The notes under the pieces were generated by a model. It was not told the DNA's origin. It saw only the letters and a program-made list of their open reading frames with translations, and did no database searches. Of a DNA stretch of 64,000 bases, positions 53,371 to 64,000 are shown one piece after another. The stretch comes from Planctomycetota bacterium (GTDB lineage Bacteria; Planctomycetota; Phycisphaerae; Phycisphaerales; UBA1924). The position numbers were made by a program, and so were the translations under genes. Location of the stretch: assembly GCA_013285505.1 (NCBI GenBank), contig CP053450.1, positions 1,844,796-1,908,795 on the forward strand, given 5' to 3'. The first letter of the stretch is position 1. Every line of letters begins with the position of its first letter.

Positions 53371-56300
53371 TCAGATCGAGCTGGTCGTGCCCACCGGCAC
53401 GCCGAGCGTGCCGAACGCACCCGGGAAGAACGAGTCGTAGCGACCGAGATACGCCACGATCGGCGAGGCACCCTTTACGGTCACGCCGTAGAAGGTGTCC
53501 TGGATCCGACGATCGCCGGTGACGAACTCGTGGATATCAAACTCGGCGACACGCCGGGCCGGGACAACCTTGCGGAAGGTCTCCTGCCCGAGCGGCACGT
53601 TCGTGCCCTTGAAGTTCCCGTCGAACCGGACCGTGATCTCGATGACCACGTCGGTGTCCGAGGGGTTGAAGATGCGGAGGTACTCCGTCACGACCTGCGG
53701 CGTGCCGTCCATCGGACGGAAGCCGGCGCCGAACGCCCAGAGCGTGTACGCATCCTGCGAGAAGGCCGACGATGCCCCGTCCTCGAAGATCAGCGTCGGC
53801 AGCGAGAGCGCGACCGGCAACGTCGCCGAGTACGCGATCGAGTAGGGCTCGCCGGACGGGAAATTCGGCAGCGAGGCCACGTCGAGCTCCGCACGTCCAC
53901 GCGCGGCAACGTCAACCTTGGTCCGGTAGGCACTGCCGCTCTGGAACAGGAACGACAGCGTGACCGAGGTCTTCGCGGTGTTCGCGTTGGTGATCCCGAC
54001 CACCTCTTCGGTCGAGTTAAGCCCAATCTCGCCCTCCGGTGTCGCACCACTCACCGAGCCCAGCCCGGCAAAGCCGACCGCGCCGGTCGCCGAGATGCGG
54101 CCAGATGTGGTCCCGTCGTCGTAGCTCGAGAGCGACGCGACGATCTGCCCCGCGGCCTCGACCACCATGCCGTACTCACCGTCCGGGATGCTGTCGATCG
54201 AGGACAGGTTCCAACCGCCGCGGCGGTGGGCGCCGAGTTCCTGCGTCAGCACGATCTCGTCACCGCCGCCTGTGGGCAGCAGCGTCGTCGTGACCTTGAC
54301 CGGCGCATCTGACGTGTTGATGTAGACCGGGAAGTCGAACCGCCCGTCGGCCTTGCCGACGCTCGCGAACGTCCACGTGTCGCTCGTCGTCGCCGTGAAC
54401 GACTCGCCGACCGCCGCCTCCTCGCCACCGAGAAGGAACGTGTCGAAGTAGCTGAACGTCGCCGCGATCGGACGCTCCGAACGCACCTCGAGGGCGTACG
54501 GCTCCAGCGGCCGCACCAGCGAGCCGCCCGGGTTGCCGTACCCGGTCGCGAACGTGGCGGGGGTGTTCGTCGTGATGCCGCCGCGGGCCTGCGCCGCGAT
54601 GGTGAAGTCGGCGATCAGATCGTCCCGCTCGCCTACCTCGTAGCGGGCGATCGCGACGACCCGCGTCGCCTCGTCGTGCGGGTTGATCATCGGCACGAAG
54701 CTGAAGATGTTGTCGCTGCTGAACCCGGCCGGGAAGTAGTAGACATACGGCAGCGTCGGCGCCAGCTCGCCGTTCGAGAGCGTCTCGGTCGCCGGCGTCG
54801 CCGAGTCGGCCGCGAGGTTGCCCGCGCCCGTGCCCGCGTTGACCTGGTCGTAGAAGCCCTGCGCTCAGACGGCGTGTCCCCCAGGAACACGAAGTACCGG
54901 AGGTTGGCCGTGTCGCCCGGCTCCAGCGTGCCGATGTCGAAGGCCAACGCCATGTTCAGGTCGCCGCTGGTGCCGTCGGGATCGTTGAGCCCGAAGTCGA
55001 GCACCTGGCTCGGGTCGCGGATGACCAGAGAGTCCGGGTCGATGAAGGTCGCCAAGGCTCGGCCGTCCGACGCCGGGGCACCCATCGAGATCGTCAGGCC
55101 GTCCGGGTACGCGTTCGTCGAGACACTCGCGCTGGCGTACTTGCCCGCCGAGTCCACATCGTTCGAGGTGCTCGGCCCGCGTCCGTCCAGGTTGCTCCCC
55201 TGGTTCGGGTCCAGCATCTCAAGCCACGAAACGTCGGTCGCGTCGGTCAGCCCCGCGTTGGTCAGCACCACATCGAAGACCAGGAACTGGTCGCTCTTGC
55301 CCAGCGTCACCGAACGCTCCACGCGGATGCCGCGGAAAGCACCCGACGCCGTGATGCGGTTGTTGAGCGGGCCGGACTGGTTCGTCAGCGAGACCGGGAG
55401 CGCCGAAGCCCCCCGCGAGCCGTCGTTCAGGAAGTCGTACCCCGAGGCCGTCAGCCCGTAGAGCGAGTTGAGCCCCGCACCCGTCCCCTGCGTCAGCAGG
55501 AAGTCGGTGCCCGCGTACTGCAGACCCAGAGGATCGCCGTTCGCGTCCGTCGCGCCGAGCGTGCCGTCGCTGGCCACGCCGACATCCAGCGAGTCGCTCG
55601 CGTACGCAGCCGCCGAGTCCGAGATACCCGCCGACACGTTCACGCTCAGCGTGTACGTCCCCGTCGTCGCCGCCGGCGTGCCGGTGGTCACATTGAACGG
55701 GTCGTACCCCGTGTTGCCACCCTCGCTCACCGCGATGTAGTAGGTGCCGCCGGCCGCAAACACAAAGCTCGTCAGCGTCGCGTTGTCGGTCCCCGTCGGG
55801 CTCGCGGCCTTCAACTCCGTGCCGTCGGCCTCAAACAGCCGCAACGCAGTGTTGAGCGACCCGCCCGAGTTGACCGTTGCGTTCAGCGTCGCGCCCGCGT
55901 CCACCGTGAACTGGAAGATATCGCGATCGAGCGTCCCGAACCCGCCGTCGCCGATCTCGGCCTGACGGATCGCCGTGCCCGTGCCCGAGATCTCATCCAG
56001 GCTCCGCGCCGTCGCAAGCGTGTCGTTCGACTCAAACGCACCGAAGATGTCGTTCTCCAGCGTGAACTCCAGCGACCAGCTGTTCAGCTGCCCGCTGTTG
56101 AGCGCCTGACGGTCGCGGATCAGCAGCGTCCACGTGCCGATCGCCGCCTTGCCGTCGAACGTGTTCAGCCCGTTGGTCGGCCTGAGGCTGCCCGAGTAGG
56201 GCGGCGTCGCGTTCACGATCGACGACCCGGCCTCGTCGTCCAGCAACAGGTCCTCGAAGTCGTCGCCGTCGTTGCCGTGGCGGTTGAACACGATCTGCTC

Positions 56301-58866
56301 AGTCCCGTCCGGCGCGATCAGCGTGATCTCCAGATCGCTCACGTAGTTGTGATCCAGATCGAGGCGGAGGTTCACGTCCTTGATCGCCCGCGCGTCCGAC
56401 ACGAAGATGCTCGCACTCTGCGAGCCCTGCGTCCCGACCGCCGGGATCGGCAGCGGCTCCGAGAGCGTGTCCGACACCGTCAGACGGTCGTCGGCGATCC
56501 GCTGATAGCTGAAGTTGACGTCGTACACGCCGGTCGACTGGCTCCGCCCGCTGCCCGACACCGTCGGGTCGTAGTCGAAGTTCGGGAAGCCCGACACGCC
56601 GACGTAGTACGTCCCGCCCGTCGTCACGAAGAAGTCCAGGAACGAGTCCCGACCGTTGAACTGATCGTTGTTGGCCAGCTCTTCCCCGTTGGCGTCAAAG
56701 AGCCGGACGTACGAGTCGAGCGAAGACGGCACCGTCAGGTTAGCCGCCGTGATCTCCACCGTGATCAGACCGCCCCGCGGCACATCCACGCGGTACATGT
56801 CCACATCCAGACCCGCCGCGAGCCCGTCGCCGAGCGTCACGCTCGAGAACGACCCCTCACCCGATCCGCTAAACGCCACCGGCGTCGCCAGCGCGAGCGT
56901 GTCGTTCGGCTCAAACGCCCCTCCGACACCCACGACCTCGAAGTCGTACGTCTCGTCAGAGCCGCTCGAGCTGTCCCCGTTCAGCAGGTTGCCGTCCAGG
57001 TCCTGGAACTTCGGATCAGACGACGTGCCCGAGAACAGCGTCACCCGATACTTGCCCAGCGGCAGCCGCTGCTGCGGCACACCGGACAGGTCCAGCTCGA
57101 TATCCACGATCCGCGTCTCGCCCGACTGCAGCCCCACGCTGTCGATCGGCGTCAGCACCGCGTTGTCATCGCCCGTGCCAAACAGCCCGTCCGGGCCCGC
57201 GAACGTGATCGACGCGGCCGTCTCGTCCAGCGTCGAACCGTCGATGTCCTTGTTGAACGTGACCGTGACCGTGTCGATCGGCAGATCCGTGTTCGCGTCC
57301 AGCCGGCTCGTGATCGGGCCGGGCTCGAAGCCCACCGCGATCGGGCCGTCCGTGCCAATGACCTGCAGCGCACGCTCCATGTTCAGCCTGCCGCCAGACA
57401 CCACGCGGCCCTGGAACGACGGCAACACGTCCACGCTGTCCAGCAGCGCCTGCCTGATCTCCACCGCCGAAGCGTTCGGCCGGAACGCCTTCAGCAGCCC
57501 GACCGCACCCGCGACGTACGGACCAGAGAACGACGTGCCGCTGATGTAGCCGTACGAGCCACCGTTGAACGTCGTGTAGACCTGCTCACCCGGAGCCGCG
57601 AGATCGACCTCGCTCGCCCCGTAGTTGCTAAAGCCCGCCAGCGCGTCCTTGTTGTCGCTCGCCGCGACCGAGATGATCCCCGGGATCGGGTACGACGCCG
57701 GGTAGTTCGTAAAGACCTCATCGTTGTCGTTGGCGTCATTGCCCGCCGATGCAACAAACGACGCACCCGTCGCGATGAACCGCTCGATCGCCTCCTGCTC
57801 ACCCGCAAAGCCCTCGGGGAACTCATCGAGGTAGAACGACGGCACAAACGCCCCGTAGCTGTTGTTGCTCGCGACGATGTTCTGCCCGAAATCGGTGATC
57901 ATCATCGTCAGGTAATCATGCCCCGCGACGATCGCCGACGTGCTCAGTCGACCAAACTGGTCCGCGATCTTGATCGGCACGATCGAAACGTCCCAGTTGA
58001 CGCCCGCCACACCGATGCCGTTGTTCCCGACCGCACCCAGCGTCCCCGCGACCGCCGTCCCGTGCCCAGCCTCGTCGTCCGGGTCGTTGTCCGACTCGCC
58101 GAAGTCCCAGCCGTTCACGTCGTCAATGAAGCCGTTGCCGTCGTCGTCGATGCCGTTCCCCGGAATCTCACCCGGGTTCACGTAGATGTTCGCGATCAGG
58201 TCCGGGTGCTGCAGGTCCACGCCCGTGTCGATCACCGCGATCGCCACGTCCCGCGAACCGATCGTGATGTCCCACGCCTCGAGCATGTTCGGGTCCGCCC
58301 CGACCACACCGACGCCCGAGCCCGGCACGTTCTGCCCCGTGTTGTCCAGCTGCCACTCACGCCCGAACGACGCGTCGTCGGGGATCCGGTCCGTGCGGTA
58401 CACCGCGTTCGGCTCAAACGCCAGAACCGCAGGAGACGACTCCGCCGCCGTCCGCACCGCCCAGTCGCTCGGCGTCGACGAGAACGACACCTCCGCCCAG
58501 CGGCCGCGACCGAGCGATTCCACGCCCGTGATCGTCTGCCCGGTCGCCGAAGCCACCTGCACCGCGAGCCGCTCGGCCTCCTCAGCGCCCGTACGCATCG
58601 TCGAAGGTCAGCAGCCAAGACCGCTCGATCACCTCGATCGTGCCGCCACGCCACGCGACGTACTCCACGCCCGACTCCGACAGGGCGCTCGGCCCATACG
58701 CGAGCTCCGGCGACATCGCGCCCGACCAGTCGGCACTCAGCAAGACGCGCGACTCGAGCGTCTCAAGCATCGACTCGGCTTGGCCCGCAGCGCGCACCAC
58801 CGAGGACAGACTCCCCTTGGCGACGGCATCTACAGACCCGCGACGAAAAAAGCGGCTCATCGACAT
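53371..58866 (-). CDS. Giant secreted subtilase with LEPR-XLL-like N-terminus (two frameshifts)
   Basis: Multi-domain exported protein of about 1830 residues. Near the N-terminus AESMLETLESRVLLSADWS is the LEPR-XLL-like element of planctomycete secreted proteins. Then an S8 domain with complete triad: Asp in AVIDTGVDLQHPDL (about 213), His in EAGHGTAVAG (about 267), Ser in SGTSFSGPYVAGAVG (about 445). PPC-type beta domains follow (GGTYYVGVSGF, GGTYYIAVSEGG), a proprotein-convertase P-like domain (HNYVSDLEITLIAPDGT...IGTWTLLIRDRQA), and about 650 residues of further beta-rich sequence. Frames change near 58600 (WLLTFDDA / RTGAEEAERL) and 54870 (GDTPSE / AQGFYDQVNAG). A perfect terminator follows. 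It interrupts a set of acyl-CoA genes and probably degrades extracellular protein. Confidence 0.9.
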
Positions 58867-62884: not shown

Positions 62885-63064
62885 GCCGCCCTCTCCCTCC
62901 GCCCCGGGCACTCCCGCCCCGGCAGCCCACCATAACTCCGCAGCCAACACCCCGACACCACCTGCCCCCACCCGACGACGGACTTCTTACGCCCTTAACC
63001 CAACCACGCGCCCGAACCACATGCCCAGGCCGTGACACCCAGGCACCCCGACCCGCCCACCCAC

Positions 63065-63099
63065 AAAAAAGCACAACCCGGCCTGAGGAGGCCGGGCTG
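63065..63099 (-). terminator. Terminator of the W/N/Q-rich gene
   Basis: On the minus strand CAGCCCGGCCT, CCTC loop, AGGCCGGGTTG (11 bp with one G-U pair), then TGCTTTTTT (complement of 63065-63070). It lies 40 bases after the stop at 63139. Confidence 0.9.
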
Positions 63100-63138
63100 C
63101 GAGGAGACATCACGATAAGGCAGAGGCCGCAAGCCCGA

Positions 63139-64000
63139 TCAGGCCGCGTCGCGCCCGTTGCAGTTCACGGGGTTCTGCGTGAAGGAGCCCGTGTTGCCGG
63201 CGTAGTTCTCAGGAGTGCCCGTGTACGACGGCATCGGCTGCTGCCAGTTGCCGCCGTTGGGGGTGTAGTTCGCACCGGAATTGGGCGTGAACCCGGGGTT
63301 GCCGTTCTGGTTGAAGTTCTGCGCGAAGTTGGGATGGAAGCTGGGAGCGAAACCGGCAGCGAAGTTCTGCCCGAAGTTCGAGTTGAAGCCGCTCGGCGAA
63401 TTCCAGCCAAAGCCGGTCGCGTTCCACGGAGTGCCGCTGAACGGTGTGGCGGTGGTGTTCTGGGTGGTCGGGGTGTTGAACCACGTCCCGAAGGGCTGCC
63501 AGCCCGTGCCGTTCCACGCCGTGTTCGAAGTCTGCGGCACGTTCGCACCCGCGTTCGAGAACCACGGCGTCGCGGAGTTCGAGAACCACGGCGTGGTCGC
63601 CGAGCCCCAGCCGTTGAAGCCGTTCTGGAAGAACGGCTGCGACTGGAAGTTGGAGTGCCCCGTGTTCCAGAACTGACCAAAGCCATTCCCGGCAAACGGC
63701 GTCCCGAACGTCGCAGCGTTACCGAACCACCAGCCGTTGGGGCCGTGGCCATACCCGTTGAAGGGCTGCCCGCCAAACGGCGACGGCTGGCTCCAGCCGG
63801 TCGCCGGGTTCCAACCGGTGGACTGGTTCCAACCGGTGTTCTGGTTCCACGGGCCGTTCTGGTTCCAGGAGCCCTGAGGCGCCGGGAACCCGCCCTGCCC
63901 GAACGAGTTGAACGGGCTCGGCGTAGAGCCGCCGAAGCCGTTCTGGTTCCAGCCCCCGTTCCAGCCCTGCGAGAAGTTCGGGTTCCAGCCCTGGTAGCCG
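63139..64000 (-). CDS. W/N/Q/G/F-rich low-complexity protein, 5'-truncated by the window edge
   Basis: The minus-strand frame stays open from the window end to the stop at 63139, at least 287 residues without a break, so the gene begins beyond 64000. GTG 63540 is inside it and is not the start. The sequence is almost wholly Asn, Gln, Gly, Trp, Phe, Pro, Ser, Thr, Ala, with hardly any charged residues: GYQGWNPNFSQGWNGGWNQ, then GSWNQNGPWNQNTGWNQ, NSFGQGGF, PFFQNGFNGWGSATTPWFS, and further on FNSNFGQNFAAGF and NFAQNFNQNGNPGF. GWN/GWNQ/TGWN motifs recur every 4-8 residues at the N-terminal side. There is one Cys, at the end (NPVNCNGRDAA). Function unknown; the composition is prion-like. A perfect terminator follows. 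Confidence 0.85.
   Translation of the reverse strand, partial: GYQGWNPNFSQGWNGGWNQNGFGGSTPSPFNSFGQGGFPAPQGSWNQNGPWNQNTGWNQSTGWNPATGWSQPSPFGGQPFNGYGHGPNGWWFGNAATFGTPFAGNGFGQFWNTGHSNFQSQPFFQNGFNGWGSATTPWFSNSATPWFSNAGANVPQTSNTAWNGTGWQPFGTWFNTPTTQNTTATPFSGTPWNATGFGWNSPSGFNSNFGQNFAAGFAPSFHPNFAQNFNQNGNPGFTPNSGANYTPNGGNWQQPMPSYTGTPENYAGNTGSFTQNPVNCNGRDAA

Follow-up and report, generated by a model that had tools for sequence, protein, structure and literature searches.

What kind of protein is encoded at the edge of a 64,000-nucleotide stretch of a Planctomycetota genome (the window), where a long frame rich in W, N, Q, F and G is nearly free of charged residues? Is it a gene with relatives, and what could such a protein do in a bacterial cell?

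A nearly uncharged aromatic protein

The host genome is one contig of 4.12 Mb, of which the window is G000:C1:1844796-1908795. On the minus strand, the frame is open at 63139-63999, which translates to 286 residues. The genome record lengthens it past position 64000, free of any stop or frameshift, to an ATG at window coordinate 64083 (G000:C1:1908878), giving a complete ORF of 314 residues that occupies 63139..64000 of the window and has its first 83 bases, ATG included, beyond it. The Shine-Dalgarno-type sequence AAAAGGA lies 5' of this ATG, and the sequence just 5' of the ATG is AAAAGGACAAGATC. The stop codon (63139-63141) is directly followed on the same strand by a terminator-like hairpin of 13 pairs with a T-run (63062..63101); the scan that recovered it gave four terminator-like sites in the 64-kb stretch against a mean of 2.1 in shuffles. 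A GDPD phosphodiesterase gene (PF03009) is next downstream in the window. At 54687-58598, also on the minus strand, the window holds a 1303-aa ORF, putatively a subtilisin-type protease with further repeat-like regions.

The protein begins with MNTPFANW and ends with CNGRDAA. In keeping with the composition first reported for this frame, 61 of its 314 residues are aromatic (34 Phe, 22 Trp, 5 Tyr); charge is confined to E292, R311 and D312, and L, I and V are represented by V182 and V306 alone. With 19 Asn/Gln in its richest 60 residues and 23 in its richest 80, it contains a long Asn/Gln-rich, low-charge segment of the kind expected of prion-like low-complexity proteins. A composition score computed over 80 residues at a time (N+Q+W+F+Y minus D+E+K+R+I+L+V) reaches 0.49 in this frame and 0.10 in the runner-up among the 431 open segments of the window. 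TRF detects three short arrays in the gene, of two to four copies each; with arrays so few and short, the frame is no accidentally translated DNA repeat, in line with what had been argued from its codons. The GWN repeats initially taken as a signature are present in six copies but are not conserved: the 25 further genes recovered from the syntenic place (see below) have 0-3, and GWN is therefore a local rather than a defining feature.

AlphaFold2, run on a five-sequence alignment, returns a mean pLDDT of 39.3 and a pTM of 0.13 without any helix or strand element, low values that so shallow an alignment could give by itself; the protein is predicted to be disordered over its whole length. The expectation of an undescribed type was supported by searches of Pfam (eight family members tried), NCBIfam (five), PHROGs (three) and, for the 314-aa protein, of PDB sequences and phage records, all without a match. 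A phage origin of the gene is without support, neither the phage records nor PHROGs giving a match. Titles and abstracts of the literature searched contain no description of such a family, and the string 'planctomyc' is absent from the main text of a survey of bacterial prion-like proteins (PMC4606120).

A family recovered by synteny

Sequence searches recovered few relatives. In 5.8 billion proteins, phmmer and a subsequent profile search found three in all: P0001 (47% identity, 316 aa) and P0002 (41% identity, 273 aa) by phmmer, and P0003 (293 aa) added by the profile. Among 61 genomes, matches were confined to the host genome and a sister genome of the same genus, G001; scans of genome contigs gave none in one and one locus in another. 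The G001 gene is publicly available within JAUZRR010000036.1, a record of a Planctomycetota MAG. It has the same divergent upstream neighbour as the 314-aa gene, and the gene downstream of it is presumably hydroxymethylglutaryl-CoA-lyase-like. A five-sequence set of close relatives has in common an N-terminal MN[TA]xF[AT]NW, a central GP[NQ]GWWFG and a C-terminal CNGRD[AV]A. The middle motif, encoded as GPNGWWFG at 63721..63744 on the minus strand, is the best conserved inner motif (5/5). Of 301 genomes of the order, two contain a GP.GWW-type DNA pattern for it, the host's own being one of them.

The near-orphan status suggested by these counts (two to three relatives; 2/61 and 2/301 genomes) was overturned by synteny. 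In f1, the taxonomic family to which the host belongs, 60 of 61 genomes contain a match to the divergent neighbour gene (317-aa match). We kept 57 of these 60 places, the host's included; G023 and G307 have only a longer paralogue, and G034 lies at a contig edge. About 5 kb upstream of the neighbour was taken at the 57 places, in 38 further f1 genomes and in 17 genomes outside f1, with less than 1 kb of upstream sequence at seven places (G033, G212, G190, G029 and G291 in f1; G178 and G135 outside). The composition scan, read in three frames, identified an aromatic low-complexity ORF divergent to the neighbour at 14 of the 57 and 12 of the 38 places, 26 of 95 f1 loci altogether, and at none of the 17 loci outside f1. 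Together with the close relatives, these loci supply the homologues of the same composition on which the initial annotation had made its proposal depend.

The family genes are set apart sharply: the 112 loci contain 4003 open segments of 80 aa or more, of which these 26 score at least 0.21 and all others at most 0.11. Twenty-five are strong members spanning 14 genera, and the frame of the last, G221, brings the number of genera in which it is open to 15. Assigned starts are preceded by sequences resembling a Shine-Dalgarno element except in G221, which is weak and short and has no clear one. Every one of the four species in the window's genus carries the gene, and so does each of the six species fetched from genus g23, which includes near-complete genomes in 1-2 contigs. 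The G221 variant (L124:4275-4676, minus strand) encodes 134 aa at the same place, is less aromatic, contains a Gln/Ala-rich stretch and ends in RDVA; it is perhaps a shrunken family member.

A profile built from 28 sequences (A6) matched 13 of 150 f1 genomes, always at the syntenic place. It misses carriers that synteny had revealed, among them G002, G003, G011, G015 and G022, and its silence is therefore no evidence for the absence of the gene elsewhere in a genome. At the syntenic place the gene is missing from 69 of the 95 f1 loci. Since most f1 genomes are without it there, the gene is not essential to f1. A quick tree was built from 99 proteins of the neighbour gene, with 13 of the 17 non-f1 rows deliberately omitted; in it, all 25 strong carriers fall in one branch of 45 rows together with 19 non-carriers and G221 (SH-aLRT 90, not starred). 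Mapping presence and absence on this tree takes 10 changes against a mean of 22.1 in shuffles, none of 500 being as low. The pattern fits a single origin followed by losses or moves, although the number of changes does not separate gains from losses.

The divergent neighbour and upstream elements

The divergent neighbour of the 314-aa gene lies just outside the window (L003:6399-7466; G000:C1:1909398-1910465) and looks exported, opening by eye with a stretch resembling a signal peptide. From the look of its sequence we labelled it, as a working assumption, STN-like. No Pfam family was matched by more than one of 12 members (best E 0.02), NCBIfam gave none, and a PDB search recovered only stretches of DNMT3B and Msh6, with a best whole-sequence E of 0.0006 and no single stretch passing. 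Farther up the same region, at L003:8303-9352, is a protein that combines a PQQ-type beta-propeller and a dockerin-like end (PF13360, PF00404).

Upstream of the family genes, leader elements were observed in two genera. GCGCGAT[GC]GT[CT]GCGCG, which forms a hairpin that is perfect or nearly so, occurs in 6/6 species of g23 (alignment A7), and GCGCAGAAA[CT]GACGC in 4/4 species of g1 (alignment A8); both are possibly regulatory. The hexamer CCGATA is enriched on the gene strand in the 450 bases upstream of the 26 genes, with 14 occurrences in 11.7 kb against 36 in the 154 kb of whole loci, the 11.7 kb included. No consistent partner box accompanies CCGATA upstream of the 26 genes, no sigma-70-like site was found upstream, and Rfam gave no matches for the upstream regions of six loci.

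Selection on composition and on the C-terminal tail

The bodies of these proteins are scarcely alignable across genera, with a mean column identity of 20-21%. In the 25 strong members aromatic residues make up 13-23% of the sequence and each protein has one to nine charged residues, 81 of the total of 122 falling in the last 20 positions. This shared composition is partly true by construction, because the scan searched for composition; the tail was not selected for. The last four residues of the 26 proteins are RDAA (9), REAA (9), RDVA (2), REVA (1), GLAA (2), NQAA (1), CEAA (1) and RNGV (1). An R[DE][AV]A end is found in 21 of 26 members and in none of 1308 background ORFs; for AA ends the counts are 22 members and 23 background ORFs. 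The background comprises upstream ORFs of 150 aa or more from the same loci, some of which are not genes. One of the two RDVA ends belongs to G221, a locus picked by a weak composition score. The tail, encoded in the window at 63142..63153 on the minus strand, is the main part of the protein whose sequence is conserved across genera.

The body evolves fast within a strict composition. For the ortholog pairs G099-G201, G009-G102, G025-G061 and G000-G001, dN/dS is about 0.23, 0.60, 0.54 and 0.32, and in their neighbour genes about 0.02, 0.08, 0.16 and 0.15, respectively. Over seven pairs, some of which share species, the range is 0.23-0.70 and all values are below 1. Amino-acid changes involving a charged residue number 0 of 36, 0 of 69, 2 of 131 and 1 of 102 in the four pairs, or 3 of 338, and 11 of 848 in the seven pairs sharing species. 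From the codons, with weighting for transitions, 20-24% of single-base nonsynonymous changes would lead to a charged residue. As charged changes are 3 in 338 where about one in five is expected, and R[DE][AV]A ends occur in 21 of 26 members against 0 of 1308 background ORFs, both composition and tail are under selection, purifying in the case of composition; that the composition is selected had been the initial view.

Discussion

Our leading interpretation, which we hold tentatively, is that the 314-aa protein, with its predicted disorder, stays in the cytoplasm, condenses via its Trp and Phe residues and is turned over through its Arg-Asp-Ala-Ala tail. Low-complexity proteins that condense are known to follow a grammar of polar spacers, aromatic stickers and near-zero charge, and it is because the composition obeys this grammar that we favour cytoplasmic condensation. 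Trp and Phe would act as the stickers driving condensation and Asn, Gln, Gly, Thr and Pro as the spacers, and the condensed body would be an intracellular droplet or gel. The tail would be recognised by a ClpXP-type protease, so that the balance of synthesis and tail-dependent proteolysis would set the amount of scaffold and, through it, the condensed state.

The family resembles the prion-like low-complexity domains of yeast prions and of FUS- and hnRNP-type proteins in being rich in Asn, Gln, Gly and Ser, in its aromatic stickers and low charge, and in conserving composition more than sequence. It differs from them in being bacterial, in being low-complexity throughout, without a folded or nucleic-acid-binding domain, in the dominance of Phe and Trp over Tyr, and in its conserved short C-terminal tail. 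Among bacterial proteins, the curli assembly factor CsgF is reported to condense through Phe (PMC10133297), a likeness to the putative condensation proposed here; CsgF acts at the cell surface, and a relation in sequence neither emerged nor was expected.

A ClpXP-type recognition of the tail is favoured because, of all elements of the ssrA degron, the Ala-Ala-carboxylate is reported to matter most to ClpXP, with related Ala-Ala degrons targeting other proteins (PMC7652416), because the host's own tmRNA tag, ANNSGYALAA, ends in ALAA, and because two members end in GLAA. The protein thus shares with ssrA-tagged and other Ala-Ala-ended substrates (PMC7652416) an Ala-Ala-carboxylate on an unstructured tail, found here as RDAA and in 22 of 26 members. 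It differs in that its tail is gene-encoded, its degradation putative, and the residue before Ala-Ala, which is Leu in ssrA, mostly Asp or Glu: Asp in the 314-aa protein, Leu in 2 of 26. The remaining four of the 26 tails have VA (three) or GV (one) in place of AA. A remark on DAS-ended tags appears in PMC8512704.

The Asp or Glu before Ala-Ala in most members makes the main rival a docking peptide in place of a degron, which we consider unlikely but worth weighing: the free R-[DE]-A-A end would bind one folded partner, and the body would tether or coat a compartment, membrane or pole. The Arg and the acidic residue, fourth and third from the end, are kept in 21 of 26 members, which is more than a ClpXP degron needs, and residues before the tail are conserved within genera, as in INV[SG]QR[DE]AA in 6/6 of g23. 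The charged pair is nonetheless missing from the two GLAA members and the NQAA member, the partner is hypothetical, and no regulon of same-tail proteins emerged, a genome-wide search giving 13 pattern matches against 14 in a reversed control, a chance-level result that weighs against the degron reading as well. Besides the 314-aa gene, one match ends a 504-residue frame, presumably an HD-type phosphohydrolase, and most others end short or spurious-looking frames.

An exported structural protein, part of a matrix, adhesive or wall, is considerably less probable. Aromatic Asn/Gln/Gly-rich repeats do occur in secreted fibres and adhesives, and the start of the divergent neighbour looks like a signal peptide; both speak for export. 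The N-terminus of the 314-aa protein, MNTPFANWTPTSTFNT, has neither Lys/Arg nor a hydrophobic stretch, and the adhesive or matrix role suggested initially is disfavoured on that ground; by eye, no signal-peptide-like start is visible in it or in the other family starts listed, and an Ala-Ala tail has no obvious extracellular role.

A selective barrier of the kind formed by FG nucleoporins, in which an uncharged cohesive meshwork would fill or line a passage of the cell, appears highly improbable. Like these nucleoporins, the proteins are long and predicted to be disordered, with Phe and Gly together in a near-uncharged Asn/Thr/Ser background, and every member contains FG dipeptides (2-41 per protein). 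In contrast to them, GLFG is found in 0 of 26 members, FxFG occurs zero to four times per protein (0 in the 314-aa protein), Trp is abundant, no sequence relation was found, and no anchoring domain is visible in Pfam or, as a folded region, in the five-sequence AlphaFold2 model. Structures resembling nuclear pores have been claimed in the planctomycete Gemmata (PMC5287468), a compartment claim that has been disputed (PMC5394234, PMC6554331).

That the gene is a chance or neutrally drifting frame in GC-rich DNA is very improbable: rapid sequence turnover and patchy presence (26/95 f1 loci) would suit it, but the frame is open in 15 genera, with each of the seven dN/dS values below 1, near-absent charged substitutions, a conserved tail, Shine-Dalgarno-like sequences (G221 apart) and a terminator.

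Returning to condensation with tail-dependent turnover, a broader and distinctly more speculative proposal is that condensation through aromatic stickers and spacers lets a bacterial family without a folded domain assemble a membraneless compartment, which an AAA+ protease reading a four-residue C-terminal handle would dissolve on demand. Only composition, locus and handle would be conserved, which would make the family invisible to ordinary homology search. Disordered aromatic proteins that preserve their composition but not their sequence have been studied extensively in eukaryotes. Here, synteny retrieves a disordered family that sequence search misses (three relatives in 5.8 billion proteins), and the role of its short tail is open to direct assay. 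The 25 natural bacterial versions at one neighbour gene, with the same composition, mostly the same tail and otherwise different sequences, are a ready-made evolutionary experiment on what stickers and spacers need.
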